DNA from: a virus | Reading direction: 5' to 3' (one strand) | Length of the DNA: 29,956 nt | IMG/VR virus record: IMGVR_UViG_3300021960_000343 | Span: 1-29,956 of that record | In this document: positions 3,325-29,956 of the stretch, in pieces | How the letters are laid out: each line of letters opens with the position of its first letter | Numbering within the stretch: position 1 is the stretch's first letter | Position numbers and translations under genes: made by a program | Notes under the pieces: generated by a model | What the model saw: the letters and a program-made list of their open reading frames with translations, nothing else | Told to the model about the DNA's origin: nothing | The model's database searches: none

Positions 3325-5774
3325 TGAATAGAAGCGTGATGGACAGACAAATGTTCCGCAATGGCGGTTACGTGCGTCGTATGCAAGCAGGGGGCGATCC
3401 GATGATGGCTCCTCCGATGGCAGGCCCGGCACCTCAAGGGATGCCCATGGGTCAAGCGGGGATGCCTCCAGCACCCTCCGCGGCAGCTATGCCTGTTCCC
3501 CCGGGAGCAAGCATGGATCAAGCCGCAATGGGGGCAATGCAGCAAGGCATAGACCCCGCGGTCCTCGAATCAATGCTCCAGCAAGCCGCTGGATCGTTTG
3601 GTAACTTGGATGCGGCAGCCGAAACCGAAGATTACGAGCAGATCATCAACACGATCCGCGGCGATCAGGCACCTCTGCAAGAGCGTCGCCAAGAGCTGGC
3701 CGGGTTGGTTGGTGATGCAGATGCGGCACAGACGCCAGACTCGGTTCTGACGCTGGTTCAGCCCATCATGCAGATTGCGGCGGTGGATCAGGGCATCGGA
3801 AGCATGGCTCCCGAAGCAATGAACACCCCTGTTACAGGTGATATGGCTGGCGGCATCATGTCGACGGTCAATATGGGTGCGGAAGAAGCACCAATGCCGG
3901 GTCAAGGAGGCCCAGCTCCTGTAAATTTTAATCGTGGCGGCCCCGTAGCTTACATGCAGGATGGGGGTCAGCCTCCTGTCGGTGGTCGCCAAGGTGAAAT
4001 CTTCAGAGAACAGCAAGCGTTGTACCAATCCATCCTGAACCCCTCGGAGGAACAGGCGGCGCTTGATGAGCAGCGGAAGATGACGCAAGCGCAGATGCTA
4101 TTTGATATAGCACAGGGCGGCCTAATATTCGCTTCTGGTGCCGCTAAACCGGGTGGTTCGCCTGCGGAGCAGCTTGCTGCTTCGTTTGTGCAGCCGCTTG
4201 GCAACATCGGCGCACGAGCTGGCGAGTTCCAGAAGGTCAAAGATGCCCAGCGGGCACAAAAACGCCAGTTGGACCTTGCAGCATTGCAGTCCTCGGGCAG
4301 TTTGTTTGCCGCAGAACGCGCTCAACAATTGAAGTCTGGCGACGAAGGCTTGGACAAGCTTTACAACGTTTACGACCAAGATGGTAACTTGATTGTTGGT
4401 GGACAGCCGCTCACTCGTTCGAGCTGGCTCGCGATCCAAGAACAGAACCCCGGCGCACAACTTCGTGAAGTGCCCGTGGCCAGAGATGCTAGTCCGATTT
4501 CACTATCGGAAGGCTCAGTTCTGGTCGACACCTTTGGTAATGTTTTGGCCCGCAACCAAGGCACTGGACGCACAACCTTGTCCTCGGGTCAGAAAGTGTT
4601 TGACGCTGCCGGCAACGTGATGTTTGAGAACAAAGGCGATCAAGAGATGACCGTTCACAATGTTGACGGCACTCTGGTGGGCTTTGATCCTAAAACGCGT
4701 ACAACGTCTGTTCTGTTCCAAGGCGACAAGAACCAGATCGTTACGGTGGAAGGCCAAATTTACGCGGTCAACCCACGCACTCGTGAAACGAACCTTCTTG
4801 CAAGCGTGGCCAACCAAGAGCCTGACTATCGTGTGCTTCGTGACACCCGCAACGGTCTCACGACGTTTATCGACATCAGCACGGCGGAAGGCGCAGCACG
4901 TATTGCAGAAGCAAATGCGGCAAACGAGCAAGCCGGAACCACTGTCTTTACCATCGGTACGGTCAGCGCGGACTCCACTCCGCAGGCCAAGGCATACCGC
5001 ATCGAAGGCGTTGGCGTCCGTCTCAGCTACGACGGTGGCCGCACCTTTGTTACCGAAGGCGAAAATGGCCCGCAAATCCGCACCATGCCGTCGGATGCAC
5101 AGCCTCTCAGCGATACGATTGCCGCCGACATTGCGTCGCGTCAGCGTATTCAGCTCATGGCTGGCAACCAGCTTGCTCAAATGGACGAGCAGTTGGGTCT
5201 TATTTCTCGTGGTGGCGAGGCAGGCAGCCCCACCGCTCTGTCGAGTGCAGAAGCTGGGTTTGTTCGCGATGCGATGCGAGCAGCACGAGACGGCACCGGT
5301 CCATACGCAGGCTTTGCTGTCTTCCTCGACCGCACGTTTGCTGGTGCTATCCCCGCGGCCCGCGATGCCTTCCAAAATACGCAGGCAAACCGTCAGTTCT
5401 TGCGCGGCCTGACTATTCTAGGTCGCTCGGCTCTCGTGGTTAACCCTCGGTTCCCGGTTGCAGAAATGGAAAAAGTCGGGGCACTATTCCCCGATCCGGA
5501 AGCCTTCTTCACTAACCCTGAGACGGAAGCGAATAAGCTTGTTGAACTCAAAAACTTGGCTTTGGCGCAGCAACGAGCCAACCTGCAAGCATTGCAGACG
5601 GGTATTGAAGATGCGGGAACTCGCCAATCGGTGATGGCAAACAACTTTGAAATTGAACGTCTGCTCGGCTTGCTACAAACCGTGCCCACCGGTGCTATCG
5701 GTCCTCGACTAGACCCGGATGCGGTACAGTCTCTGCAAGACGTGATTAGACAAAGCAGAGGCGGGGAAAACTAA
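3321..5774 (+). CDS. Virion structural protein with glycine-doublet motifs
   Basis: This 817-residue protein opens with MMNRSVMDRQMFRNGGYVRR, then a Met/Pro/Gly-rich linker, and has a second 'NRGGPVAYMQDGGQPP' patch near residue 205. Both patches resemble those in the first and fifth virion genes here. The middle (about 400-600) has beta-rich, polar sequence with alternating short strands, and the last 200 residues look helical. The start overlaps the upstream stop by four bases and the gene ends in a TAATG overlap with the next one. Position and style make it a tail or internal virion protein; I recognise no catalytic motif. Confidence is high that the gene is real and moderate that it is in the particle. 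Confidence 0.8.
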   Translation: MMNRSVMDRQMFRNGGYVRRMQAGGDPMMAPPMAGPAPQGMPMGQAGMPPAPSAAAMPVPPGASMDQAAMGAMQQGIDPAVLESMLQQAAGSFGNLDAAAETEDYEQIINTIRGDQAPLQERRQELAGLVGDADAAQTPDSVLTLVQPIMQIAAVDQGIGSMAPEAMNTPVTGDMAGGIMSTVNMGAEEAPMPGQGGPAPVNFNRGGPVAYMQDGGQPPVGGRQGEIFREQQALYQSILNPSEEQAALDEQRKMTQAQMLFDIAQGGLIFASGAAKPGGSPAEQLAASFVQPLGNIGARAGEFQKVKDAQRAQKRQLDLAALQSSGSLFAAERAQQLKSGDEGLDKLYNVYDQDGNLIVGGQPLTRSSWLAIQEQNPGAQLREVPVARDASPISLSEGSVLVDTFGNVLARNQGTGRTTLSSGQKVFDAAGNVMFENKGDQEMTVHNVDGTLVGFDPKTRTTSVLFQGDKNQIVTVEGQIYAVNPRTRETNLLASVANQEPDYRVLRDTRNGLTTFIDISTAEGAARIAEANAANEQAGTTVFTIGTVSADSTPQAKAYRIEGVGVRLSYDGGRTFVTEGENGPQIRTMPSDAQPLSDTIAADIASRQRIQLMAGNQLAQMDEQLGLISRGGEAGSPTALSSAEAGFVRDAMRAARDGTGPYAGFAVFLDRTFAGAIPAARDAFQNTQANRQFLRGLTILGRSALVVNPRFPVAEMEKVGALFPDPEAFFTNPETEANKLVELKNLALAQQRANLQALQTGIEDAGTRQSVMANNFEIERLLGLLQTVPTGAIGPRLDPDAVQSLQDVIRQSRGGEN

Positions 5775-8700
5775 TGGCAGATGAAAAAGGAACCCCAACT
5801 ACACCGGAACTTCCGCCGCTGAACCCCATCAACCCTGCGGTTTTTGACAAGCCGCAGTTTGATGCCTTTGTTGAGCGGTTTCAGAACAGCCCCGAAGGCG
5901 CGGCGCGAGTGATCGCCCGGACCTTGGCTGGCGAACTGCAACAAGAGAATCCGGATGCTTTCACTTACGAAAGCCTTCGTGACGGCACGGCTCGCTTTTT
6001 TGATTACAGCCCTACCACGCGTAACTTAGCTCCGGCAGAGCGCAGCTTGACGGACGAGCAGATCATTACGCTGTTCGCAACGGACACCGAAGGTAACCCG
6101 ATTGAAAGCGGCACGTTTCTTGCCGGTTTTCAGCGTGAAATTGCTCCTGCTGCGACCAGTGGCGGGGCGTTTGTTGCTGGCGCTCGTGCTGGCGCGAAGT
6201 TGCCTATTCCGCATCCGCTTGGTCGACTAGCGGCTGCCACGGTTACCGGTATCGGCGCTTCTTTGCTTGGATACAAAGGTGGCGAGCTACTGACAGACGC
6301 CGTCTTGGGACCAGAACGTCCGTTGCTGCCGGGTCAAACCGCAGCGTATGAGCAGGGCAAAACGGCGGCCAGTGTTGTGGCCTTCTTGCCTATGCCTTTT
6401 GCCGTGAGCCGAAACGTCAGTCTTGGCACCGCGGAATACCTGACAAACCTCGCGTCCCGCGGCATTGAAACGGCTCCGCGCAGCGTTCGTTTGGTGCAGG
6501 GTGCAGAAAACCTGCTTGGCCGTATGGGTGCCTCCGCACGATCCGCACCTATCTTTACGACTACGGCAGAAATGATAGCCGGAACGGGTCAAGTAGTTGG
6601 CGCGGGCATGGCCGAAGAACGCGCACCCGGCGATCCGCTTACTCGTCTGGCATACGAGACGATTGGTAGCGTGGGCTCTAACATCATCGGTAACCCGACT
6701 GTTGCGCTTCTTTATAACGCAGGCAACATCATGCCTATTTTAAGGAACGTTCGCGACCAATATAGACAAGGCGGCCTTCGCCAAGTTCTGTCGCCCATCA
6801 AAAATGCGCGTCAAAACCAAGCGGTTGGCCGCATCGTAGAAATTCTGGAAGCTGACGAACTCAGCCGGGCCCAAAATGCAGGCGTCGGCGATGCTGCGGT
6901 TGCAGCAGCGCGTGAGCGCGGCGTAACCGATCCGGCAGAATTGAACCGTATCAAGCAGGATGCGGAAACCGAAGCAATGCGTAGCGGCGTCAACAACGTC
7001 ATCGACCGCTTGGCTTCCGACGACCTATCCAACCTGCTGCTTGACGAAAATGGCCGTCCTATTCCGCTTACTGCCGGTGCCAAATCAGGCCATCCGGCGA
7101 TGTTGGCTATTGAAGCCAGCTTGGCGCAGCTCGATGGTGCTTTGGGTAAAGACCGGGTCGCAGGTTCGAAGTCTGCAATCAAAGCCCTGCGTAACGTCAT
7201 CTTGGCCATGGCTCAAACTGGCGACCAAGCCGCATTGCAGCAAGCTGCCGACTTGGCCGAATCAGTCTTCTCGGCGAACTTGAATAACCGCATGACCGAC
7301 GCCACCACACGCGTATTGGATGCGTTTGAGCGCGTGGGCTTTACGGAAGGCACCAACGTCCGGCTTTCTGAGCGCCTGTATGACGTCGTAACAAACCAAA
7401 TGCGCCTTGCTCGCGACAAAGAACGCCAGCTTTGGGGCGCAGTGCCGGACATCACAATCGACACGTTTGTCGATGCGAACGGCAACGCCTCCACGACCCC
7501 GCAGTTTATTCAGCGTTGGCGCGAGCTTTTTGCAAACGCGCCGCAGGAATACCGCGACGAATATGAGCGTTCGATGCCCGCTTTGGCATCGTTCGTCAGC
7601 CGTAAAGCAAACGAGCTTGGTCTGGGCACCATGCTCCAGCCGGATTCGCCACAGCTTCGCTCTGCGCGGTCCGCGGCCCAGACAGCCGCAAACCGTCTTG
7701 TCGGAACCGCTAACGAAGGCGCTGTTGAGACGTTCTTGAATGGTCAACGCAGCCAAAATCTTAGCGACGACGCGATCATCAGCAACTTGCGTAGTGCCGC
7801 AGACAATATTCGCTCTACCCCGACCAGCCAACGCGGCCCACGGGACATTGCGTATGCTGCGGCCTTGGATGCACAAGCCAACTTGATGGCTCTGCAAGCG
7901 CGTGAAGCCCAAGCGGCAGCCGCTTCAGGTGCCTCGCAGATCACTGGCGAGCTGACGTCAAACGACCTGACCAAAATGCGCTCTTTGGCGCTGGAATACG
8001 GTCGTACTGCAATGGCTAACGGCCAAGAAAACCGCGCTCGCATGGCGTTTGATATGGCCGATGCCATGTTGAGCGACTTGTCGAACGTGCCTGCCGGGCC
8101 GGGCCAAGATAACTACCGCGTCGCCTACGATATGGCTCGTGCTTACTCTCGCGCTTTAAACGACACGTTTACCCGTTCGTTTGCAGGCGATGCGATGGCA
8201 ACGACACGCACCGGCGGGGATCGTATTGCACCAGAGCTTCTGGCCAGCCGTTTGCTGCAAGCCGGTAACGATCCAACCTATGTCCGCGTCATGCAGATCA
8301 ACGAAATCGGCAATTTTGCCGCTCGTGAAGGTTTGGAAGGTGCAGAAGAAACGATTGGCACCTTGCGTGGCGTGACAGAGCAAATTCTGCGTAACGCACG
8401 GGCCGCGGCCTTTGACCCAGAAACCGGTCAAATTAACCCGCGGCGGCTCCAGAGCTGGATGCAGCAAAACGAAGACGTTTTGAGCCAATTCCCGGCGCTT
8501 CGTCGCGACTTGATGGACGCGCAAACCGCAAACATCTTGTTGGACGAGACCTCGCAGGCTCGTCGTAAGGCAATTGCTGAAGAGCGGGCTCAAATGAGCT
8601 TCTACAACCTGATGAACCCGGTTGTGGACAGAGAAACAGGCCGTCGCATGTTTGGTACTGAAAGCCCGACCACTGCGATTGCACAAGCTTTGAACCCCGA

Positions 8701-9640
8701 GAACTTCGCTCCAATCCGCAGCTTAAACCGCTTGCTGGCGGTTGTTGAAGGAACGGATGACCCGCAGCTCCGCGAACAAGCTATGACCGGCTTCAAGTCG
8801 GCCCTCTTGGAATGGGCTGCGACCAAAGCTGGCGGCAGCCATTCTGGCAAGTTTAGCCCAAGCACTCTTTATGATGCGATGTTCAGACCTATTCGTGGGT
8901 CTTCTGGCCGTATTCCGCTGATGGATTGGATGCTTGAAAAAGGCATTATCAACCAAGCTGAAGCGACAAACCTCAAAACCTACTTGACCGAGATGGTTAA
9001 GTTTGAGGCTTCCGAGCAGACAGGTGAAATTGGCGAGCTGGTAGAACGCGCAGGTCCAATCCTCGACTTCTACCTCAGCATCACCGGTTCGGCACTGGGT
9101 ACAAAAGCACAAAGCCTTATCACTGGTGGGAAATCTGGCCCCGGCGCTCTTATCGCTGCCGGACGCGGTGCAGAAACCATGCGTCGTATCTTTGCCGACC
9201 TGCCTGCCTCCATGCAGACCGACGTTATGGGCGAGCTAATGCGTAACCCAGAATTGTTGGCGACCATGATGCGTCGTCCGCGTAGCCAGCGCGAAAAAAT
9301 GCGTCTCATGCAACGTGCCGGCCAGATACTTGCCGATTTGGGCTTCCGTCCGGTCGTCGACGTTTACCCAAGTGTCGAGCGCGAATTTATGCGCGAGCGT
9401 GAGGATATTCCTCCTCCGTCACCGAATTTGCCCCCGCCTAACCAGCAAGGGGCACTGGTTCCGCCCGCCCAACTTCCCACTCAGGGCGGCGGGGCTGCAC
9501 CTAGTCCGGTTCAACTGGCGTCTGCGGCCCCACAACGGCCACCCATCCAGTCTTCGGGCCCTGTGGATCGGACTAAGTATGCAGCTTTATTCCCCGAGGA
9601 CCGCGAGCTTCTCGGCATTGGCAGCTTGATGGGGGGTTAA
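5774..9640 (+). CDS. Large internal virion (ejection-type) protein
   Basis: At 1288 residues this is the largest gene in the window. It starts at the ATG in a TAATG overlap. The N-terminal 120 residues are polar; residues about 130-185 include an alanine/glycine-rich hydrophobic stretch (PLGRLAAATVTGIGASLLGY) that could be membrane-active. The remainder is mostly alpha-helical with many 'RLA', 'AAR' and 'LDA' segments. The C-terminus is a proline-rich linker (about 1205-1255) followed by a short conserved-looking tail (GPVDRTKYAALFPEDRELLG). Very large helical proteins just before a transglycosylase virion protein are typical of the internal core or ejection proteins of podoviruses (compare T7 gp15/gp16). 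Assignment rests on size, composition and position, not on a recognised domain. Confidence 0.75.
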   Translation: MADEKGTPTTPELPPLNPINPAVFDKPQFDAFVERFQNSPEGAARVIARTLAGELQQENPDAFTYESLRDGTARFFDYSPTTRNLAPAERSLTDEQIITLFATDTEGNPIESGTFLAGFQREIAPAATSGGAFVAGARAGAKLPIPHPLGRLAAATVTGIGASLLGYKGGELLTDAVLGPERPLLPGQTAAYEQGKTAASVVAFLPMPFAVSRNVSLGTAEYLTNLASRGIETAPRSVRLVQGAENLLGRMGASARSAPIFTTTAEMIAGTGQVVGAGMAEERAPGDPLTRLAYETIGSVGSNIIGNPTVALLYNAGNIMPILRNVRDQYRQGGLRQVLSPIKNARQNQAVGRIVEILEADELSRAQNAGVGDAAVAAARERGVTDPAELNRIKQDAETEAMRSGVNNVIDRLASDDLSNLLLDENGRPIPLTAGAKSGHPAMLAIEASLAQLDGALGKDRVAGSKSAIKALRNVILAMAQTGDQAALQQAADLAESVFSANLNNRMTDATTRVLDAFERVGFTEGTNVRLSERLYDVVTNQMRLARDKERQLWGAVPDITIDTFVDANGNASTTPQFIQRWRELFANAPQEYRDEYERSMPALASFVSRKANELGLGTMLQPDSPQLRSARSAAQTAANRLVGTANEGAVETFLNGQRSQNLSDDAIISNLRSAADNIRSTPTSQRGPRDIAYAAALDAQANLMALQAREAQAAAASGASQITGELTSNDLTKMRSLALEYGRTAMANGQENRARMAFDMADAMLSDLSNVPAGPGQDNYRVAYDMARAYSRALNDTFTRSFAGDAMATTRTGGDRIAPELLASRLLQAGNDPTYVRVMQINEIGNFAAREGLEGAEETIGTLRGVTEQILRNARAAAFDPETGQINPRRLQSWMQQNEDVLSQFPALRRDLMDAQTANILLDETSQARRKAIAEERAQMSFYNLMNPVVDRETGRRMFGTESPTTAIAQALNPENFAPIRSLNRLLAVVEGTDDPQLREQAMTGFKSALLEWAATKAGGSHSGKFSPSTLYDAMFRPIRGSSGRIPLMDWMLEKGIINQAEATNLKTYLTEMVKFEASEQTGEIGELVERAGPILDFYLSITGSALGTKAQSLITGGKSGPGALIAAGRGAETMRRIFADLPASMQTDVMGELMRNPELLATMMRRPRSQREKMRLMQRAGQILADLGFRPVVDVYPSVEREFMREREDIPPPSPNLPPPNQQGALVPPAQLPTQGGGAAPSPVQLASAAPQRPPIQSSGPVDRTKYAALFPEDRELLGIGSLMGG

Positions 9641-22143: not shown

Positions 22144-22161
22144 TAGTTGAATATCCCATAT
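22132..22161. promoter_or_regulatory. Inverted repeat over the small-RNA promoter (possible operator)
   Basis: ATATGGGAT (22132-22140) and its exact complement ATCCCATAT (22153-22161) have centres 21 bp apart, about two helical turns. The right arm overlaps the spacer just after the -35 box. The core TCCCAT is the same variant half-site seen near 22910 and 26200. Confidence 0.5.
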
Positions 22162-22174
22162 GTGGTGGTATAAT
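22147..22174 (+). promoter_or_regulatory. Strong sigma70-type promoter for the small RNA
   Basis: TTGAAT (22147-22152), 16-bp spacer, perfect TATAAT (22169-22174). The expected transcription start is near 22181 and a terminator follows within about 77 nt, before any gene starts. Confidence 0.8.
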
Positions 22175-22180
22175 GGAGCG

Positions 22181-22257
22181 CGTGGTCACGGCCACACTCC
22201 GTAGTGAAAAGACCCGCCCCTAGTTCGGTTGCCCCCGGCTAGGGGCATTTCTTTTTT
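22181..22257 (+). ncRNA. Candidate small RNA with hexaloop TTGCCC
   Basis: The segment runs from the expected start of a TTGAAT/TATAAT promoter to the T run of a terminator and contains no gene. A 5' hairpin GTGG-TCACGG-CCAC (22182-22195) is followed by an unpaired stretch (about 22201-22215). The terminator hairpin has stem GCCCCTAG (22216-22223) with CTAGGGGC (22239-22246), and inside it a second helix CGG (226-228)/CCG (235-237) that closes the six-base loop TTGCCC (22229-22234). That loop is the exact complement of the GGGCAA hexaloops in four leaders downstream. Alternatively it is an attenuated leader of the gene at 22269; the ribosome site of that gene directly follows the terminator. 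Confidence 0.65.
22216..22257 (+). terminator. Terminator of the candidate small RNA
   Basis: An 8-bp stem GCCCCTAG/CTAGGGGC is followed by ATTTCTTTTTT. The enclosed 15 bases, unusually many for a terminator, can fold further into a small helix that presents TTGCCC. Confidence 0.85.
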
Positions 22258-22268
22258 AGGAGAACACT

Positions 22269-22484
22269 ATGGAAAATCAGAAACAATTCGTCGATGGCCT
22301 CATCGCAAAAAAACCACGGGATAACGCTCCCGACTGGGTTAAAGTCAATCTAAGCATCAAGCGCGAAGAACTCGCTACATGGCTCACGAGCCAAGAGGGC
22401 GATTGGATCAACGTGCAGGTTTGCGAAAGCCGCAATGGCAAATGGTACGCAGAGGTGGATACATGGAAGCCAACAACCGCGTAA
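22269..22484 (+). CDS. Small conserved phage protein, function unknown
   Basis: This 71-residue protein starts at an ATG with TTAGGAGA ahead. 'FVDGLIAKKPRDNAPDWVKVNLSIKREELATWL' and 'NGKWYAEVDTWKP' match a small family I recognise in many marine phages and prophages, usually in early or replication regions and of unknown function. It begins right after the small-RNA terminator, so its expression depends on readthrough or on that terminator being controlled. It overlaps the next gene by 22 bases. Confidence 0.8.
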   Translation: MENQKQFVDGLIAKKPRDNAPDWVKVNLSIKREELATWLTSQEGDWINVQVCESRNGKWYAEVDTWKPTTA

Positions 22485-23342: not shown

Positions 23343-23641
23343 AGGAAGACCTCAAAGAAAAATGGTGGGCGTGGCACAAACAAAACCCAGAGTTCTATAA
23401 ACTCTTCGAACGCTTCACCTTCCAAGCTATCGAGGGTGGACACTCTCGCTTTTCCGCTTGGCTAATCGTTAATCGCATCCGGTGGGAGACCATGATCGTC
23501 ACCACCGGCGACGACTACAGAATTTCCAACGACTACATAGCCCTGTATGCGCGGCTCTTCATGCACGAGCATCCGCAATACAAAGGCTTCTTCAGAACGA
23601 AACCGATGAAGCGGGCAAGCTTCAATGGAGAAACATCATGA
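23339..23641 (+). CDS. Conserved phage protein, function unknown
   Basis: This 100-residue protein has many aromatic residues. 'FERFTFQAIEGGHSRFSAWLIVNRIRWET' and 'YRISNDYIALYARLFMHEHPQYKGFFRTK' match a family I recognise from phages and prophages of Proteobacteria, frequently near replication or recombination genes; I know no activity for it. It is translationally coupled (ATGA) to the AlpA-like gene upstream and to the next gene. Confidence 0.78.
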   Translation: MKEDLKEKWWAWHKQNPEFYKLFERFTFQAIEGGHSRFSAWLIVNRIRWETMIVTTGDDYRISNDYIALYARLFMHEHPQYKGFFRTKPMKRASFNGETS

Positions 23642-24311: not shown

Positions 24312-24340
24312 TTGACATCTATGCGATTTTATGCGATAAT
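24312..24340 (+). promoter_or_regulatory. Near-consensus sigma70 promoter with tandem ATGCGA operator
   Basis: TTGACA (24312-24317), 17-bp spacer, GATAAT (24335-24340). ATGCGA occurs at 24321-24326 and 24331-24336, exactly 10 bp apart, overlapping the -10 box. Start expected near 24347. Confidence 0.85.
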
Positions 24341-24345
24341 GCTTT

Positions 24346-24387
24346 ATCGGTTGGAAAAAGCCAGCCGATTGGGACGGGCAAGTCCCA
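24346..24387 (+). promoter_or_regulatory. Structured 5' leader with GGGCAA hexaloop
   Basis: The leader begins with a 9-bp hairpin (ATCGGTTGG AAAAAG CCAGCCGAT, 24346-24369). Directly next is TGGGAC GGGCAA GTCCCA (24370-24387), a perfect 6-bp stem with loop GGGCAA. The same loop on different stems occurs in three more leaders downstream. Confidence 0.75.
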
Positions 24388-24421
24388 CGCTCTTTGACAA
24401 TTTAAACTACGGAGGTTCACC

Positions 24422-24883
24422 ATGAGTGAAGCTAACCCTACCCCTGTGTTCGTTTACAACGATGGAGGCCGAAAGGCCGCAGGCTACAAAGGCAGCGCAG
24501 ACGACTGCGTTTGTCGAGCCATCGCCATCGCAGCGCAACTCCCCTACCAACAGGTCTATGACCGACTGGCAGAAGGAAACGCCTCGCAGCGTAAATCGAA
24601 ACGCACGGGCAAGCAGTCCCGATCAGCCCGTAACGGTATCTATACCAAGCGTAAATGGTTTAAGGACTACATGCTTGAACTAGGCTTCGTCTGGACCCCT
24701 ACGATGCAGATCGGCAGCGGGTGCCAAGTCCACCTCAAAGCTGATGAGCTACCGGGCGGACGTATCATCTGCTCAGTATCTAAGCATTACGTCGCAGTCA
24801 TCGACGGTGTTATCAACGACACCTACGATTGCTCCAGAGACGATAAGCGATGCGTCTACGGCTACTGGACCATGCCTCAATAA
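24422..24883 (+). CDS. Papain-like-fold cysteine peptidase/amidase-like protein
   Basis: This 153-residue protein has ACGGAGG ahead of its ATG. The sequence shows 'DDCVCRAIAIA' (C29 on the first helix), 'SVSKHYVAVIDGVINDTYD' (H122 followed by D133) and a basic loop in between. A Cys near the start of a helix, followed by a beta-strand His and a later Asp/Asn, is the order of papain-like or C39-like enzymes, and this pattern recurs in a family of phage proteins. Catalysis is inferred; targets could be host proteins early in infection. It is a single-gene cassette with its own promoter, structured leader and terminator. Confidence 0.65.
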   Translation: MSEANPTPVFVYNDGGRKAAGYKGSADDCVCRAIAIAAQLPYQQVYDRLAEGNASQRKSKRTGKQSRSARNGIYTKRKWFKDYMLELGFVWTPTMQIGSGCQVHLKADELPGGRIICSVSKHYVAVIDGVINDTYDCSRDDKRCVYGYWTMPQ

Positions 24884-24889
24884 CCACGG

Positions 24890-24918
24890 CCCCCGGTCCA
24901 CGGATCGGGGGTCTTTTT
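24890..24918 (+). terminator. Factor-independent terminator
   Basis: CCCCCG (24890-24895) pairs with CGGGGG (24906-24911), followed by TCTTTTT. Confidence 0.85.
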
Positions 24919-25242
24919 GCGTCGATCACGGCCCACGGGGTAACAAATTGAACGCGCTTTCCTTATATATAGAGCCAAAATCAAAAAAATATTTTTTAGC
25001 AAAAATGGCCGTAACCGGTGTAACCGTGTAACTTTGGGCAAAAAGTCTTTTATATATATAGACTTAGAAGAAACACAAAGTAGAAATCAAAAATGTAACG
25101 TAACCAAAGTTTGTGTAACCTGTAGAGGGCGAAAGTGCGTTAAGGGGGTCGTGGCAAATTTTTTTTAAAAATATTTTTCTGGCTATATATAAACAAAGCG
25201 GTTAATTTGTGGTAAACTATCGGTAATTAACTGGAGTTTGTC
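24919..25242. other. Gene-free AT-rich region with GTAAC iterons (candidate origin or packaging site)
   Basis: I see no credible gene between 24884 and 25242. The region holds GTAAC or GTAACC on the plus strand at 24940, 25011, 25020, 25028, 25095, 25100 and 25115. It also holds three TATATA-type boxes (near 24964, 25052 and 25184), long A/T runs (for example near 24982-24998 and 25157-25178) and a hairpin AAGTCT/AGACTT (25043-25067). Direct repeats beside AT-rich DNA are typical of replication origins; position just before the small terminase gene also fits a packaging (pac/cos) site. Neither is proven. Confidence 0.55.
25031..25046 (+). promoter_or_regulatory. Weak fifth GGGCAA hexaloop hairpin
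   Basis: ACTTT GGGCAA AAAGT forms a 5-bp, mostly A-U stem with the same loop as the four leaders. It is not linked to a clear promoter or start codon, and the last bases can instead pair in the AAGTCT/AGACTT hairpin, so it may be chance. Confidence 0.35.
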
Positions 25243-25881
25243 ATGGCACGACCAAAGAAGACCGACACTGCAAAATCCACACCTGTCGTGGCCAAGCGTG
25301 GCCCCGGCAGACCGAAGGCAACCCGGACGCAGCAATTGACGCGACGGCAAGAGCTGTTTGTCAAAGAGCTGGTTTCGAAGGATGGCCAGATCACCATGAG
25401 GGAAGCGGCAATCAATGCCGGGTATCCTGTTAGCTCGGCGCATACCCGGGCATACGAATTGACCAATCCGCACATAAGCCCGCATGTTGTGGCAGCGATC
25501 CAAGCTTACCGGGCGGAACTGGACGAAAAGTTTGGCGTGACATACCAGCGGCATTTGCGTGACTTGCAGGTGATCCGTGACATGGCACTCCAGAACGGCG
25601 CATATTCGGCAGCCGTCCAAGCCGAATATCGACGGGGGCAAGCGCAGGGCGACATCTATGTCAGCAAATCAGAAATACGCCACGGCAGCATCGACAGCAT
25701 GAGCAAAGATGAAGTGCTGAAGGCGTTGCAGGAGATTAAACAAAGCTATGCCCCGATCACTATCGACGTTACTCCCGAAGGACAAAACAATCCCCAGAAC
25801 CGCGACAAAGCGCGAGTCCGACTTTTGGCAAATGATGAAGACGGGGATTTCAAAGACATCGCGGAAGCTGAGAACGACTAG
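25243..25881 (+). CDS. terS: Terminase small subunit
   Basis: This 212-residue protein has TGGAG 7 bases before its ATG. The core is a terminase_2-type helix-turn-helix: 'LTRRQELFVKELVSKDGQITMREAAINAGYPVSSAHTRAYELT' (about 28-72), followed by a coiled-coil oligomerisation region ('VVAAIQAYRAELDEKFGVTYQRHLRDLQVIRDMA'). Small terminase subunits form rings that recognise the packaging start site and recruit the large subunit. The N-terminus has basic ARPKK and GPGRPK, AT-hook-like motifs for minor-groove binding, next to a very AT-rich upstream region. The large subunit is not in the window. The 3' end overlaps the nuclease gene by up to 134 bases in another frame. Confidence 0.85.
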   Translation: MARPKKTDTAKSTPVVAKRGPGRPKATRTQQLTRRQELFVKELVSKDGQITMREAAINAGYPVSSAHTRAYELTNPHISPHVVAAIQAYRAELDEKFGVTYQRHLRDLQVIRDMALQNGAYSAAVQAEYRRGQAQGDIYVSKSEIRHGSIDSMSKDEVLKALQEIKQSYAPITIDVTPEGQNNPQNRDKARVRLLANDEDGDFKDIAEAEND

Positions 25882-26227
25882 GCTTGAAACTTGGGCTATG
25901 CCCGGGGTGCCTGACGTTTTAATCTGCGACGAAGAGGGACACTTTCATTTTGTAGAGCTGAAGGTCACGGGGGGCAAAGCCGTCGAGTTGCGTCCCCATC
26001 AAGTGGCTTGGCTTTCAAACCACAGTCATGCCAGCGCGTGGGTTTTGGTCTTGAAGAAAAAGACGAAGACACTGCCGCAGCGCATATGCCTTTACCCTGC
26101 CAGCGCAGCGATGGACCTGAAGCTGGAAGGCTTGGAAGTCGACCCGCTTTACGAAGAAACCGACACGATTTGTTGGGATTTCATTTTGGACTTGATTTGT
26201 CCCATAGGATCGCATAATATCGCATAG
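25748..26227 (+). CDS. VRR-NUC / Holliday-junction-resolvase-like endonuclease
   Basis: The core shows PD-(D/E)xK nuclease residues: 'TRLETWAMPGVPDVLICDEEGHFHFVELKVTGGKAVELRPHQVAWL'. The Asp of GVPDV and the E-x-K of VELK are the metal-binding residues, and the Gln of PHQVAWL is the usual following Gln. An upstream ESDFW segment also looks family-like, which favours the ATG at 25748 despite a 134-base overlap with terS; the ATG at 25832 is the alternative. Such enzymes cut branched or flapped DNA and may resolve replication or packaging intermediates, which suits the place beside terS. A promoter for the next gene lies within its last 40 bases. Confidence 0.75.
   Translation: MPRSLSTLLPKDKTIPRTATKRESDFWQMMKTGISKTSRKLRTTRLETWAMPGVPDVLICDEEGHFHFVELKVTGGKAVELRPHQVAWLSNHSHASAWVLVLKKKTKTLPQRICLYPASAAMDLKLEGLEVDPLYEETDTICWDFILDLICPIGSHNIA
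26192..26225 (+). promoter_or_regulatory. sigma70 promoter with triple TCGCAT-type operator
   Basis: TTGATT (26192-26197), 17-bp spacer, TAATAT (26215-26220), inside the end of the nuclease gene. TCCCAT (26200), TCGCAT (26210) and TCGCAT (26220) are spaced exactly 10 bp apart. Confidence 0.75.
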
Positions 26228-26254
26228 TCTCTTTTAACTTACGGAGGATATGAG

Positions 26255-26446
26255 ATGGAACACAACATTTTGTTTGAAGAAGAGTTACCGTTGAATCACG
26301 AGCCTAGCTTAGATCATTGGGCGCATCTTATTGCTAAAGATGAAATAGATAACGGTGGGAATAACTACGACTATGAGTATGAACAGGCGTGGCATTATTT
26401 GGATGCGGAGTTCAACTACAACTATGAGCACAGGGAGCAAGCGTGA
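26255..26446 (+). CDS. Small acidic protein, function unknown
   Basis: This 63-residue protein is rich in Asp, Glu, Asn, Tyr and His, with ACGGAGG seven bases before the ATG. It includes 'LDHWAHLIAKDEIDNGGNNYDYEYEQAWHYLDAEFNYNYEHRE'. No family recognised. It is first in a four-gene cluster (26255-26967) under the triple-site promoter. The leader shares 'CTTTTAACTTACGGAGG' with other cassette leaders here but lacks the GGGCAA hairpin. Confidence 0.7.
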   Translation: MEHNILFEEELPLNHEPSLDHWAHLIAKDEIDNGGNNYDYEYEQAWHYLDAEFNYNYEHREQA

Positions 26447-26628
26447 TGAAAGATTATGAGATGGAACAGAAATACCTTGAAGCCGCACAGGCAGATTATG
26501 AAGCGCTGTATAAAGACCGCGACATGATCCATTATTTGGCGGAGCTTTACGTCGCACTGCACAAGCTGGACCCGGAAAACTACAACATTGATTCGCACTG
26601 GTCGCTGGCCGAGGAGGTAGACGCATGA
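26446..26628 (+). CDS. Small helical protein, function unknown
   Basis: This 60-residue protein starts at the ATG at 26446 (TGATG overlap with the previous stop; GGGAG 8 bases upstream), not at the GTG one codon earlier. Helical, charged: 'MEQKYLEAAQADYEALYKDRDMIHYLAELYVALHKLDPENY'. No known domain. It overlaps the next gene by four bases. Confidence 0.7.
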   Translation: MKDYEMEQKYLEAAQADYEALYKDRDMIHYLAELYVALHKLDPENYNIDSHWSLAEEVDA

Positions 26629-26852
26629 CGTATGACGAACGACACGGCGGCCCGTTTGATCGTGGGGGCGCAGACTTTTGGTATGGCCGCGGGTTTAATC
26701 CGCATTATTACAAGGGGGCAACCTACTCGACCGACCGGGTTGAGCTTGCCGACATGACACCGGAGGAAATAACCGCTTATACCGTGGGCTATCGGGAAGC
26801 CGAAGAGCGCGGGGATCAAAAAGACTGGGGGGATGATTGTGTTTCTGCTTAA
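26625..26852 (+). CDS. Small conserved phage protein, function unknown
   Basis: This 75-residue protein has GAGGAGG seven bases ahead of an ATGA overlap start. 'YDERHGGPFDRGGADFWYGRGFNPHYYKGATY' and 'MTPEEITAYTVGYREAEERGDQKDW' match a small protein family that I recognise from many marine phages; it may be part of a nucleic-acid-binding or early takeover function, but nothing is established. It contains GGGGGCAACC in its coding sequence without a hairpin. Confidence 0.78.
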   Translation: MTYDERHGGPFDRGGADFWYGRGFNPHYYKGATYSTDRVELADMTPEEITAYTVGYREAEERGDQKDWGDDCVSA

Positions 26853-26967
26853 CTTGTTTGGCCGTTTGTTCTGGGGCAAAGAGCAATGGGAAGAATTTGA
26901 ACGCAAGCAACGGCAGCCCAAACCGATGCGCCGCCAGCCTATAAGGGCCAAGCGCAAGCGACGCTAA
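26833..26967 (+). CDS. 44-residue microprotein with hydrophobic head and basic tail
   Basis: It reads from the ATG at 26833, overlapping the previous gene by 20 bases. The N-terminus MIVFLLNLFGRLFW is hydrophobic enough to insert in a membrane interface, the centre is charged (GKEQWEEFERKQRQ) and the last 17 residues are strongly basic (PMRRQPIRAKRKRR). Gene order and fit up to the terminator support a real gene; the ribosome site (GGGGGG touching the ATG) is poor. A membrane-associated or RNA-binding early peptide is possible but speculative. Confidence 0.5.
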   Translation: MIVFLLNLFGRLFWGKEQWEEFERKQRQPKPMRRQPIRAKRKRR

Positions 26968-26980
26968 TTTTTGAAAAAAT

Positions 26981-27007
26981 AATCCCGCTTGACCGCGGGA
27001 TTTTTAT
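26981..27007 (+). terminator. Terminator with a -35 box in its loop
   Basis: AATCCCGC (26981-26988) pairs with GCGGGATT (26995-27002), followed by TTTATT. The six-base loop is TTGACC, which is also the -35 box of the next promoter. Confidence 0.8.
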
Positions 27008-27023
27008 TCGTTATGATATGCGA
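26989..27023 (+). promoter_or_regulatory. sigma70 promoter overlapping a terminator, with one ATGCGA site
   Basis: TTGACC (26989-26994), 17-bp spacer, TATGAT (27012-27017). A single ATGCGA follows at 27018-27023. The leader is short (about 30 nt), ends in ACGGAGGG and lacks the GGGCAA hairpin. Confidence 0.65.
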
Positions 27024-27053
27024 TAAATCTTATATCACAACGGAGGGTAAACC

Positions 27054-27797
27054 ATGTTAAAGACTATTGAAATTAGCGCCGCCACGAAGACGGCAGGCAT
27101 TGCGGTAACCTACCGCGCAGGCACCGGCGAGAAATACGGAACATGTCCGGCCTCTTGCAAAATGAATTGCAGCGGCAAGGGGGCGGAACAAATCGACGCC
27201 GAATATCTGGACGCATTGCTGGACGCCGTGCCCAGCAAGGGCGTGTCGTTTACTTACTCGCATTTTGGCTGGCACCTTTGGGCCGATAAGCTTGCGCCGG
27301 GTAAAACCGTTATCAACTACAGCACCGAAAGCATGATAAGCGCCGCGGCAGCGTCGCGAGCCGTGCCGACTGTTGTGGTCGTCGCGGAATCCGAATGGGG
27401 GGACGGCAAGACACTGCGGGCACCTTTATTTGGTGGCACCAATAGCCGCGGGCATTTTGTGCAAACGGGATCGGTCCGGGTAGTCCGCTGCCCGGCAGAA
27501 TATCGCGCCGGATTTAGCTGCCGCGATTGTGGCAACGGCGAGCCTTTATGCGCCCGGCTGGATCGGGATTATATCATCGGCTTTACAGCGCACGGGTCCA
27601 GCAAGAAAAAGGCCGCCGACGTGACGACCCGCGGGGGATGTTATGCCGACGCTGGCCATTGCCGCATTTGGTGGAATGAAACCGCAAACGGGCAGCAAGA
27701 TGAAACCGACGCGGAAAAGGTCCGGCGCTTTGCGAAGGGATTGCCGCCGCGGTCGATTATCCGGCACCATGTTGCCGGGGATATTGGGGCCGAATAA
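27054..27797 (+). CDS. Cysteine-rich phage protein (gp88/DUF7227-like)
   Basis: This 247-residue protein has nine Cys in conserved-looking groups: CPASCKMNC (C31, C35, C39), C146, CRDCGNGEPLC (C156, C159, C166) and GGCYADAGHC (C196, C203). The spacing suggests metal or iron-sulfur binding. 'FTYSHFGWHLW' and 'VVVAESEWGDGKT' lie between. The layout recalls phage gp88-type proteins (DUF7227), whose function is not established; the family name is given from memory and is tentative. Codons here favour CGG, CCG and GGG, unlike the virion genes. Single-gene cassette with its own promoter. Confidence 0.75.
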   Translation: MLKTIEISAATKTAGIAVTYRAGTGEKYGTCPASCKMNCSGKGAEQIDAEYLDALLDAVPSKGVSFTYSHFGWHLWADKLAPGKTVINYSTESMISAAAASRAVPTVVVVAESEWGDGKTLRAPLFGGTNSRGHFVQTGSVRVVRCPAEYRAGFSCRDCGNGEPLCARLDRDYIIGFTAHGSSKKKAADVTTRGGCYADAGHCRIWWNETANGQQDETDAEKVRRFAKGLPPRSIIRHHVAGDIGAE

Positions 27798-27814
27798 CTT
27801 TTTAAAAAATAAGC

Positions 27815-27843
27815 TTGCAATCTATGCGAGATTATGCGACATT
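27815..27843 (+). promoter_or_regulatory. sigma70-type promoter with tandem ATGCGA operator
   Basis: TTGCAA (27815-27820), 17-bp spacer, GACATT (27838-27843; weak -10). ATGCGA at 27824-27829 and 27834-27839, again 10 bp apart. The layout is nearly identical to the promoter at 24312. Confidence 0.7.
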
Positions 27844-27845
27844 AT

Positions 27846-27874
27846 AGGGGCCGCTCGGGCAATGGGCGGTCCTT
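27846..27874 (+). promoter_or_regulatory. Leader hairpin with GGGCAA loop
   Basis: GGGCCGCTC (27848-27856) pairs with GGGCGGTCC (27864-27872) with two G-U pairs and can extend by two more pairs; the loop is GGGCAAT. It lies between the promoter and the ribosome site of the DUF932 gene. Confidence 0.75.
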
Positions 27875-27898
27875 TTAACTTTTACGGAGTGTAAAATC

Positions 27899-29089
27899 AT
27901 GACTTATCAAACAAACGCAATCGCGCACGGCATCGGCAATTCGGCAGTATCTTCGCAATGGTACAGCCGCCCAGACGATCAAAAGTTTTTGTCGCTGGAC
28001 GACATGCTGGCCTTTAAGAAAATCGACGCCCAGCGCATGACATCCCGCACGGTCGACACGCACAAAATGCGCATCGTCGGGGAAGTCGACCAGAGCCGTC
28101 CCAGTGTCGGCGAAATATTTGTGGAATATAACGACGACAACGGGCGGGACCATTTAAACACCCCGACCAATTGGAGCTTTGGACAGCTTGCCCAGCTTGC
28201 GGGGGCACCGTCTGGATATTTGAAAGACTTGCCCGCCCCGCTTGCGGCGGATTGTATTCAATGGGGTTTACGCTATAACCGCGGGCGGGAGCTGGTCAAA
28301 GTTTACGGGCACCAAACCGACGGCGGCGAGCTACGGGCCGCAACTGGCCCCGACTATGGCCGGATTTTTGACTGGGAAATTTTGGAACCGATCAAAAACC
28401 TTGTGGACGCGTCCGGCGGTCGCTGGAAAGTGCCCGGCATGATGACCGGCAGCCGCAACGGTTTGGCCGTTTACGATCCAGAAATCCCCGTGAGCATGGA
28501 AACGACGACGCTATTTGCATCGGATCGGGACGTTTTCGTTTTCTTGGTCGACGACCGCAACCCTATCGAGGTCGGCAAGCTTGCGAACGGCGAGCCCGAT
28601 TTGATGTTTCGGGGTTTTTATGCGTGGAACAGTGAGACCGGCAGCAAAACCGCCGGGATCGCTGCAATGTATCTCCGCGGGGTTTGCATGAACCGCAATC
28701 TGTGGGGCGTCGAAAACTTTCAAGAAATTAAAATCCGGCATACTAAATTCGCCCCCGACCGTTTCGCCATGGAAGCCCGCCCAGCTCTGGAAAGCTTCGC
28801 GCATGGGTCGACCACAACATTTGTCGAAGGCGTCGAAGCGGCCAAGGCGGCCAAGGTGGCACGGGACGACGACGACCGGCTGGACTTTTTGACCAAGCGG
28901 GCGGGATTATCTGGACGCATGGCCAAGGCAGCGGCGGCCCGTCACATTGTTGAAGAGGGGCGCCCCGTCGAATCCGTCTGGGATGCAGCGCAAGCGATTA
29001 CCGCAATCGCCCGCGACATTCCCCACCAAGATGCTCGCATTGATATGGAGCGCAAGGCGGGGGCATTGCTGGACAAGGTCGCAGCATAA
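27899..29089 (+). CDS. DUF932-family phage/plasmid-like protein
   Basis: This 396-residue protein starts with the ATG after TTTACGGAGTG. 'WSFGQLAQLAGAPSGYLKDLPAPLAADCIQWGLRY', 'LRAATGPDYGRIFDWEILEPI' and 'GFYAWNSETGSKTAGIAAMYLRGVCMNRNLWGVENFQEIKIRHT' are the characteristic segments of DUF932 (TIGR03299), found on phages and plasmids. The family is often highly expressed or early and is suspected to bind single-stranded DNA, but the role is unproven. Full length for the family. Single-gene cassette: promoter with tandem operator, GGGCAA leader hairpin, then terminator at 29117. Confidence 0.85.
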   Translation: MTYQTNAIAHGIGNSAVSSQWYSRPDDQKFLSLDDMLAFKKIDAQRMTSRTVDTHKMRIVGEVDQSRPSVGEIFVEYNDDNGRDHLNTPTNWSFGQLAQLAGAPSGYLKDLPAPLAADCIQWGLRYNRGRELVKVYGHQTDGGELRAATGPDYGRIFDWEILEPIKNLVDASGGRWKVPGMMTGSRNGLAVYDPEIPVSMETTTLFASDRDVFVFLVDDRNPIEVGKLANGEPDLMFRGFYAWNSETGSKTAGIAAMYLRGVCMNRNLWGVENFQEIKIRHTKFAPDRFAMEARPALESFAHGSTTTFVEGVEAAKAAKVARDDDDRLDFLTKRAGLSGRMAKAAAARHIVEEGRPVESVWDAAQAITAIARDIPHQDARIDMERKAGALLDKVAA

Positions 29090-29093
29090 AACC

Positions 29094-29143
29094 CAGCGCC
29101 GCGACGCTGCAGAACTGGCCGCCTTCGGGCGGCCTTTTTTTTT
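29094..29143 (+). terminator. Hairpin plus factor-independent terminator
   Basis: CAGCG CCGCGA CGCTG (29097-29112) follows the stop codon, then GGCCGCC TTCG GGCGGCC (29117-29134) and nine T. The same two-hairpin layout follows the gene at 29655. Confidence 0.9.
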
Positions 29144-29147
29144 AGCT

Positions 29148-29181
29148 TTACTTTTTAAAAAGTTATCGCATATAATCCCAG
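29148..29181 (+). promoter_or_regulatory. sigma70 promoter with TCGCAT operator
   Basis: TTACTT (29148-29153), 17-bp spacer, perfect TATAAT (29171-29176). TCGCAT (29166-29171) is followed 10 bp later by the degenerate TCCCAG (29176-29181). A palindrome CTTTTTAAAAAG (29151-29162) lies in the spacer. Confidence 0.85.
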
Positions 29182-29184
29182 ATA

Positions 29185-29202
29185 CCAGCCGGGCAAGGCT
29201 GG
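29185..29202 (+). promoter_or_regulatory. Leader hairpin with GGGCAA hexaloop
   Basis: CCAGCC GGGCAA GGCTGG: a perfect 6-bp stem with the shared loop, starting within the first bases of the expected transcript. Confidence 0.8.
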
Positions 29203-29229
29203 CAACCCTTAACCTACGGAGGCCACAAA

Positions 29230-29655
29230 ATGGCAAACATTCACGTTATAAACATTCGCCCCAGCGACTCTATGCTGGACCGTGTCTTAAACCCTGCCGC
29301 GGATCGTCGCATTGGAGCGGCCCGCCCCGCCGACATCATCGAAGCGTGCGGGATCATTCCCGACTTTTTTTATACGGCTTGCATTATGTCGAGCAATAGC
29401 GACGGCGTCACAACGCTGGACGCTATCGCGGACGGCATGGACGCCGAATATCAAATGGGCGGCTTTTGCTATCCCTTCGGCGGATCGGTCGACGTCGACG
29501 GGACATATCACAGCGAATTCGCGGACGATCCAGACATGGCCCCGCTGGCCCGCTTTGGATTTGACGGGCGCTTTTTCTGCTATGTCTATGACTATGGGAT
29601 AACCGCGATCCGCGACGGGCTGGACGGGCCCTTTAAAATCGCCCGTTTTGATTAA
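29230..29655 (+). CDS. Phage cassette protein, function unknown
   Basis: This 141-residue acidic protein has ACGGAGG before its ATG. It has a helical N-terminal half ('SMLDRVLNPAADRRIGAARPADIIEACGIIPDFFYTACIM') and a second half rich in Asp, Phe and Tyr ('GFDGRFFCYVYDYGITAIRDGLDGPF'). I do not recognise it. Like its neighbours it is a one-gene unit with promoter, operator, GGGCAA hairpin, ribosome site and terminator all its own. Confidence 0.75.
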   Translation: MANIHVINIRPSDSMLDRVLNPAADRRIGAARPADIIEACGIIPDFFYTACIMSSNSDGVTTLDAIADGMDAEYQMGGFCYPFGGSVDVDGTYHSEFADDPDMAPLARFGFDGRFFCYVYDYGITAIRDGLDGPFKIARFD

Positions 29656-29658
29656 ACC

Positions 29659-29708
29659 CAGCGCGACCGCTGGACACTGGGCCGCCTTCGGGCGGCCTTT
29701 TCTTTTTT
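29659..29708 (+). terminator. Hairpin plus factor-independent terminator
   Basis: CCAGCG CGAC CGCTGG (29658-29673) is followed by GGCCGCC TTCG GGCGGCC (29680-29697) and TTTTCTTTTTT. It closely resembles the unit at 29094-29143. Confidence 0.9.
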
Positions 29709-29712
29709 AACT

Positions 29713-29746
29713 TTACTTTTTTAAAAGTTATCGCATATAATCGCAT
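29713..29746 (+). promoter_or_regulatory. sigma70 promoter with tandem TCGCAT operator
   Basis: TTACTT (29713-29718), 17-bp spacer, TATAAT (29736-29741). TCGCAT at 29731-29736 and 29741-29746. It is essentially a copy of the promoter at 29148. Confidence 0.85.
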
Positions 29747-29747
29747 T

Positions 29748-29767
29748 CGACGGGGGGCAACCCGTCG
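29748..29767 (+). promoter_or_regulatory. Leader hairpin with GGGCAA hexaloop
   Basis: CGACGGG GGGCAA CCCGTCG: a perfect 7-bp stem with the shared loop. The stem sequence differs from the other three leaders while pairing is kept. Confidence 0.8.
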
Positions 29768-29796
29768 CAACTTTTAACAACTACGGAGACCATACC

Positions 29797-29956
29797 ATGA
29801 TTGAACTTAACACCGACCACGAATTTTTGATTAAACTTTCCGACGACTTGGGAGACAGCGAAACCGCCCGCGACATCCGCATTGCCGCGCAGGACATCAA
29901 AAACCTGACCGACTATATAGAGCGGCTGGAATGGAACATTAACCAAATGTCAAGCG
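29797..29956 (+). CDS. Phage cassette protein, 3' end cut by the window
   Basis: An ATG follows ACGGAGAC at a good distance and the frame is open to the end of the window (53 residues visible). It begins MIELNTDHEFLIKLSDDLGD and continues as charged helix with 'IRIAAQDIKNLTDYIERLEW'. No family recognised. It is the last visible member of the cassette array, with promoter, tandem operator and GGGCAA leader hairpin. Confidence 0.7.
   Translation, partial: MIELNTDHEFLIKLSDDLGDSETARDIRIAAQDIKNLTDYIERLEWNINQMSS

Follow-up and report, generated by a model that had tools for sequence, protein, structure and literature searches.

The window analysed here, an IMG/VR virus record 29,956 bases long, carries phage genes, several of which have a leader hairpin with a fixed GGGCAA loop on a changing stem. 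We find that this loop is the exact complement of an invariant TTGCCC loop in a conserved small RNA element about 2 kb upstream of the leader hairpins, and that a second segment of the element is complementary to the ribosome sites of the same leaders. We propose, with a probability of about 0.8, that the element gives rise to a phage small RNA that binds the leaders through a kissing loop combined with pairing to their ribosome sites, probably repressing them. A sequence-only reading of the window had already described the hairpins; their selection, fixed loop, changing stems and position in leaders stand, but it missed the reason for the fixed loop, which would lie in its complementarity to the loop of the small RNA.

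The four hairpins of that reading are all present on the plus strand (Table 1), and the ACGGAG ribosome site that it placed after each of them is found as TACGGAG at copies 1-4. The loop of copy 2 can be drawn as the seven bases GGGCAAT or as GGCAA with a G-T closing pair. The statement that no other GGGCAA in the window makes a stem was mistaken, as the occurrence at 23613 forms a fifth hairpin, and a promoter before each hairpin could be confirmed in part: the scan lists sigma-70-like promoters for copies 1, 3 and 4, and none for copy 2. By itself, GGGCAA shows no enrichment across the window (31 occurrences versus 23.5 expected, with 9 of 100 shuffles as high); GGGCAA followed 12-32 nucleotides later by TACGGAG occurs five times, against a mean of 0.01 in 100 shuffles. 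One of these five matches, at 22197-22234, is the minus-strand complement of the small RNA. ACGGAG is used by 6 of the 30 genes in the window, all six within the target region, and the site thus appears to be part of the same recognition signal as the loop.

For comparison, 80 loci were gathered through the DUF932 gene (27899-29089) out of 266 relatives found, and a second set of 81 sources was built around the DNA polymerase, plus the window; it should be noted that counts over sequences so related do not represent independent events. All 26 aligned copies of the element have TTGCCC unchanged, and CTCCGTAG is nearly invariant (one further copy, from L238, with TTGCCC outside that loop, was excluded from this alignment). 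The terminator stem has changed around the fixed loop, 7 of its 12 pairs being altered on both sides, including the loop-closing pair, and its covariation of 0.374 exceeds the 0.154 of shuffles (0 of 500 as high). A covariance model matches the element at E < 1e-5 in 55 of the 81 sources and at E <= 0.001 in 22 of the 80 DUF932 loci, many of which are short; the model's own training rows match by construction. Promoter and terminator signals are present at the element, and the relatives have a similar promoter region (by eye; weak in a consensus scan) and a 5' hairpin of different sequence at the same place (by eye).

The arrangement of the two complementary segments fits simultaneous contact with a leader. 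Both conserved segments are complementary to several unlinked messenger RNAs (mRNAs), TTGCCC to GGGCAA and CTCCGTAG to CTACGGAG, and their order in the small RNA is that needed for antiparallel pairing. They lie 24 nucleotides apart in the small RNA, and loop and ribosome site are separated by 18-26 nucleotides in copies 1-4 and by 5 in the fifth, a spacing that fits both contacts. When the small RNA was shuffled, both motifs appeared in order in 21 of 200,000 sequences. Target leaders are themselves weakly matched by the small-RNA model on their reverse strand (E 0.0036 at window 29733-29809), as expected from the complementarity.

From these features we infer transcription as a discrete RNA, binding, repression and timing. 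The phage would make a small RNA of about 80-90 nucleotides from its own promoter, which would fold into the 5' hairpin, the segment CUCCGUAGU and a terminator hairpin with an exposed UUGCCC hexaloop. This RNA would then recognise at least five phage genes, contacting each leader at two places simultaneously, UUGCCC kissing the GGGCAA hexaloop of the leader hairpin through six base pairs while CUCCGUAG pairs with the ribosome site CUACGGAG through eight or more. A ribosome site covered in this way would block translation, the mRNA may be exposed to cleavage, and the gene group would be turned off together. We favour repression over activation since the ribosome site is covered by the pairing and left free by the leader hairpin itself. 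Gene 26255 is a possible target through its site only.

Table 1. Features of the small RNA element, its neighbouring gene and the candidate target leaders (window positions).
Feature	Position	Strand	Description
Putative small RNA element	~22175-22257	+	promoter, 5' hairpin, CTCCGTAGT, terminator hairpin with six-base loop TTGCCC
Predicted small-RNA promoter	22147-22174	+	TTGAAT - 16 - TATAAT; 10/12 matches
5' hairpin of small RNA	22182-22195	+	GTGGT/GCCAC; from fold
Antisense segment	22197-22204	+	CTCCGTAG; exact complement of ribosome site CTACGGAG; near invariant in alignment A1
Terminator hairpin and T tract	22216-22257	+	GCCCCTAG TTCGG TTGCCC CCGG CTAGGGGC, then ATTTCTTTTTT
TTGCCC loop	22229-22234	+	exact complement of target loop GGGCAA
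71-residue gene	22269-22484	+	directly 3' of small RNA
Fifth GGGCAA hairpin	23607-23624	+	TGAAGC(GGGCAA)GCTTCA; then ATGGAG and gene at 23638
Extra 5' hairpin, copy 1 leader	24346-24369	+	stem ATCGGTTGG/CCAGCCGAT; loop not conserved
Target hairpin 1	24370-24387	+	TGGGAC(GGGCAA)GTCCCA; loop 24376-24381
TACGGAG site, gene 24422	24408-24414	+	
TACGGAG site, gene 26255	26240-26246	+	leader without GGGCAA hairpin
Target hairpin 2	27848-27872	+	GGGCCGCTC(GGGCAAT)GGGCGGTCC; loop 27857-27863
TACGGAG site, gene 27899 (DUF932)	27883-27889	+	
Target hairpin 3	29185-29202	+	CCAGCC(GGGCAA)GGCTGG; loop 29191-29196
TACGGAG site, gene 29230	29215-29221	+	
Target hairpin 4	29748-29767	+	CGACGGG(GGGCAA)CCCGTCG; loop 29755-29760
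TACGGAG site, gene 29797	29782-29788	+	

The relatives bear out the leader hairpins as a family. Counting all distinct GGGCAA sites without requiring a stem, and defining as leaders those before NA[CT]GGAG and a start codon, we find GGGCAA as the loop of a stem of at least five pairs at 66 of 118 leader sites versus 37 of 855 elsewhere. The sequence-only reading had offered to give way if such hairpins were no commoner upstream of genes, and on these counts it survives. As a control, 59 other permutations of the hexamer were counted, with a median of 3 leader sites and never more than 2 leader hairpins. Of the leader sites beyond the 66, many are DUF932 leaders with seven-base loops or larger loops in orthologues of gene 29230, and about 15 are, by our reading, copies of the small RNA read from the opposite strand. 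Selected RNA structure with changing, compensating stems, as had been claimed, is supported by 11 distinct orthologous hairpins of gene 29797, picked by orthology and presence of GGGCAA and not by pairing, in which 87% of cells are paired and covariation is 0.483 versus 0.161 in shuffles (0 of 500 as high). The loop is less rigid than the sequence-only reading had it: GGGCAA is kept while stems vary, but relatives also show GGGCAG, GGGTAA, GGGTAG, GAGCAATT and ATTTCCC, the first three of which retain pairing with UUGCCC via G-U. Most DUF932 leaders keep a hairpin right after the promoter, with loops GGGCAA(T), GCAA or others.

The ribosome sites of these genes are similarly shared. Counted over distinct orthologous leaders, TACGGAG occurs in 6 of 8 for gene 24422, in 37 of 51 for gene 27899 and in 26 of 44 for gene 27054 (with 14 starts not assigned); orthologues of gene 29230 carry TACGGAG in 32 of 52 and TATGGAG in 13 more (45 of 52 together), and those of gene 29797 carry the two forms in 12 and 6 of 20, respectively (18 of 20 together). 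By contrast, the 71-residue gene beside the small RNA has TACGGAG in only 3 of 40 leaders, those three being, by our reading, from clade E, where the gene has its own promoter region.

In some clades, though not in all, small RNA and targets appear to have changed jointly. In clade B (L261, L267), CCTCCAT in a hairpin loop replaces CTCCGTAG; the targets identified there by their loop read CATGGAGG and TATGGAGG. The antisense segment of clade C (L286, G011, G012, L289) is CCTCGTTGTGTAAG; the target in G012 reads CTTACACAACGGAG, an 11-base complement of its own segment, and a target with a GGGCAAA loop in L289 reads CCACAACGGAG. Of the five loop-defined targets in the altered clades, four pair better with their own segment than with the common one (own versus common, -14.9 versus -8.1, -12.7 versus -11.1, -11.0 versus -10.5 and -16.8 versus -10.0 kcal/mol). 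Forty-nine rows were scored in this comparison, and among the 44 from common-type clades the common segment was preferred in 29; the remaining common-clade rows comprise four GGGTGA hairpins, which we take for coding sequence, and otherwise mostly TATGGAG sites. Clade E (L264, L281, L295) keeps CTCCGTAG and has different terminator loops, and in its 44 scanned leaders a GGGYAR hairpin occurs in none and TACGGAG in 15. One further contig, G007, has orthologues of genes 27899, 29230 and 24422 with other ribosome sites; it gave no match to the small-RNA model or in a motif search for the 71-residue gene, and the contig may be incomplete.

We consider it an even bet that an aquatic phage lineage runs a private two-part RNA address of this kind, in which one small RNA serves separately transcribed genes, each marked by a hairpin with the fitting loop and by an altered spelling of its ribosome site. 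From clade to clade both halves of this address would shift together (CTCCGTAG/TACGGAG, CCTCCAT/ATGGAGG, CGTTGTG/CACAACG), and a phage may therefore be unable to control the genes of its relatives. More generally, sequence alone predicts here a post-transcriptional regulon that spans the phage and whose address is short, readable and swappable. Such a regulon would also provide a directly testable case of RNA-RNA coevolution, with ribosome sites shaped by a small RNA and not by the ribosome, and a predicted function for a conserved intergenic element of an uncultivated phage group.

Several results weigh against regulation by the small RNA or against its joint evolution with the targets. No GGGYAR is present in 24 of 51 distinct DUF932 leaders, and in one (L016:2572) the loop is ATTTCCC, as if inverted. 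Several contigs that bear the element have no GGGCAA leader in the stretch examined, many of these stretches being short. Two of the four better-pairing cases are better by small margins (1.6 and 0.5 kcal/mol), and the clade D target (L255) favours the common segment over its own (-13.4 versus -10.5). In a coarse genome-wide test over all starts, which include many false ones, the own segment was best in only 4 of 16 contigs. Finally, the terminator tails are weak in some copies, with at least six T in eight bases in 17 of 26 (some tail windows being incomplete), which suggests that the RNA may partly be a leader of the 71-residue gene.

This last point bears on an explanation that we regard as unlikely, in which the element is mainly the leader of that gene and the target mRNAs act on the element, by titration or altered termination. 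The element does lie directly upstream of the gene in 35 of 37 distinct regions, the two without an abutting element both being from clade E; in this clade, however, element and gene have separate promoter regions by eye, and the pairing covers the ribosome sites of the targets, which makes the targets the likelier side to be affected. That the segment at 22197-22234 is simply another leader, on the minus strand, whose complementarity would be trivial, is barely credible: GGGCAA and TACGGAG do stand there in leader order, but promoter and T tract are on the plus strand, and no conserved gene follows on the minus strand: of 21 copies with TACGGAG on that strand, 7 lack a start codon within reach and the rest open frames of 1 to 87 codons that are unrelated to one another.

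Two further explanations concern the hairpins alone. Lambda N binds boxB, and protein-bound hairpins typically combine a fixed loop with a free stem, so that GGGCAA might be bound by a protein such as a phage antiterminator or translational repressor, all the more as a boxA-like CTCTTTRACA follows the hairpin in copy 1 and its relatives. We think this very unlikely, since copies 3 and 4 are without the boxA-like sequence, only 8 of 109 distinct GGGCAA..CTCTTTRACA sites on viral contigs have a stem of at least four pairs (all eight with a TACGGAG leader of the GGGCAA hairpin family), and a protein explains neither the fixed ribosome site nor the invariant TTGCCC element. A lambda-type nut site would place boxA beside each hairpin, and the boxA-like sequence is found in the copy 1 class only. 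Mere protection of mRNA 5' ends from decay is consistent with the start of most hairpins near the predicted transcription start and with the retention of a hairpin with a different loop in some leaders; it is nevertheless highly improbable, because the copy 1 leader already has a 5'-terminal hairpin with a free loop, yet a second one with GGGCAA follows, and stability alone fixes neither loop nor TACGGAG. On this evidence, protein antitermination, mRNA stabilisation alone and a minus-strand gene were rejected, and a small RNA acting on the leaders is the reading that we retain.

RNAIII is a bacterial regulator whose targets differ in structure. On Staphylococcus aureus coa and rot, it combines ribosome-site binding, loop-loop contact and cleavage (PMC3861533), and the proposed system is similar in that one RNA would address several mRNAs by ribosome site and loop-loop contact. 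Unlike RNAIII, the present candidate is a short phage RNA with a perfect hexaloop-hexaloop match, and its targets have one hairpin loop in common. The c4 antisense RNA of phages P1 and P7 likewise is made by the phage and pairs around the ribosome site of a phage mRNA, its loops being probable contact points, and one target (ant) is described for it (PMC12197685); here there would be many unlinked targets, and Rfam gave no match. VpdS of vibriophage VP882 is also a phage-encoded, trans-acting small RNA, which binds Hfq and affects phage and host mRNAs, and no hairpin shared by its targets is described in that part of the source, unlike the fixed two-part address proposed here; phage small RNAs as treated there mostly have one phage target or host targets (PMC12197685). 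Kissing small RNAs are known, and what did not appear in the literature searched on phage-encoded small RNAs with kissing loops or shared target hairpins, which covered subscription journals only partly, is a regulon with a common loop address, that is, a phage small RNA with its own multi-gene, loop-coded regulon.

Neither the leader hairpin nor the small RNA element has an Rfam family at cut-off: a scan of the whole window at gathering score gave no matches, including to the C4 antisense RNA family, and permissive scans of copy 1 and the element gave matches only far below cut-offs. Most of the element is spanned by a sub-threshold match (22185-22261, plus strand; E 0.7) to ctRNA_pGA1 (RF00236), a plasmid counter-transcribed RNA whose family consists of antisense RNAs; at 14.8 bits versus a cut-off of 45, the match falls short of membership. 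ctRNA_pGA1 acts in cis on a replication gene. Megablast against phages returned no matches, and one form of the element was sought in bacterial genomes with no occurrence. Judged by DNA polymerase (52-59% identity), the nearest named phages are DSL-LC04, 023Pt_psg01 and HTVC023P, none of which matched the small-RNA model in the stretches searched. In DSL-LC04 (L297, 26047-27771), ACATAC[AT]GGAG is common to four leaders, forming a repeated ribosome site ACATACAGGAG whose core TACAGGAG occurs repeatedly in 9 related contigs. No convincing antisense partner was found there, and as TCCTGTATG, which stands before a terminator, recurs in only 3 of 9 near relatives, we do not claim an analogous system.

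The protein of the neighbouring 71-residue gene is conserved, its 17 aligned rows sharing 49-80% identity with the window copy, and has no Pfam, PHROG or fold match; elsewhere in the window, a 1288-residue open frame at 5774-9640 also lacks a Pfam or PHROG match. The copy 1 leader belongs to a class (with L085, L088, L138, L162, L179, L182 and L190) in which a hairpin of variable stem and loop precedes the GGGCAA one, and some of these relatives have one more hairpin, of the GGACTTCGGTCC type, ahead of the ribosome site. After hairpin 1, CGCTCTTTGACAATTTAA at 24388-24405 is kept in relatives of this leader and resembles the boxA of ribosomal operons. TATGCGA or its complement is enriched in the window (10 seen versus 3.3 expected; 0 of 100 shuffles as high), at 24320-24336, 26210-26226, 27823-27839, 29166-29172 and 29731-29737, often paired at a 10-bp distance close to the -10 region of a target promoter, and is probably a transcription factor site or a promoter variant.

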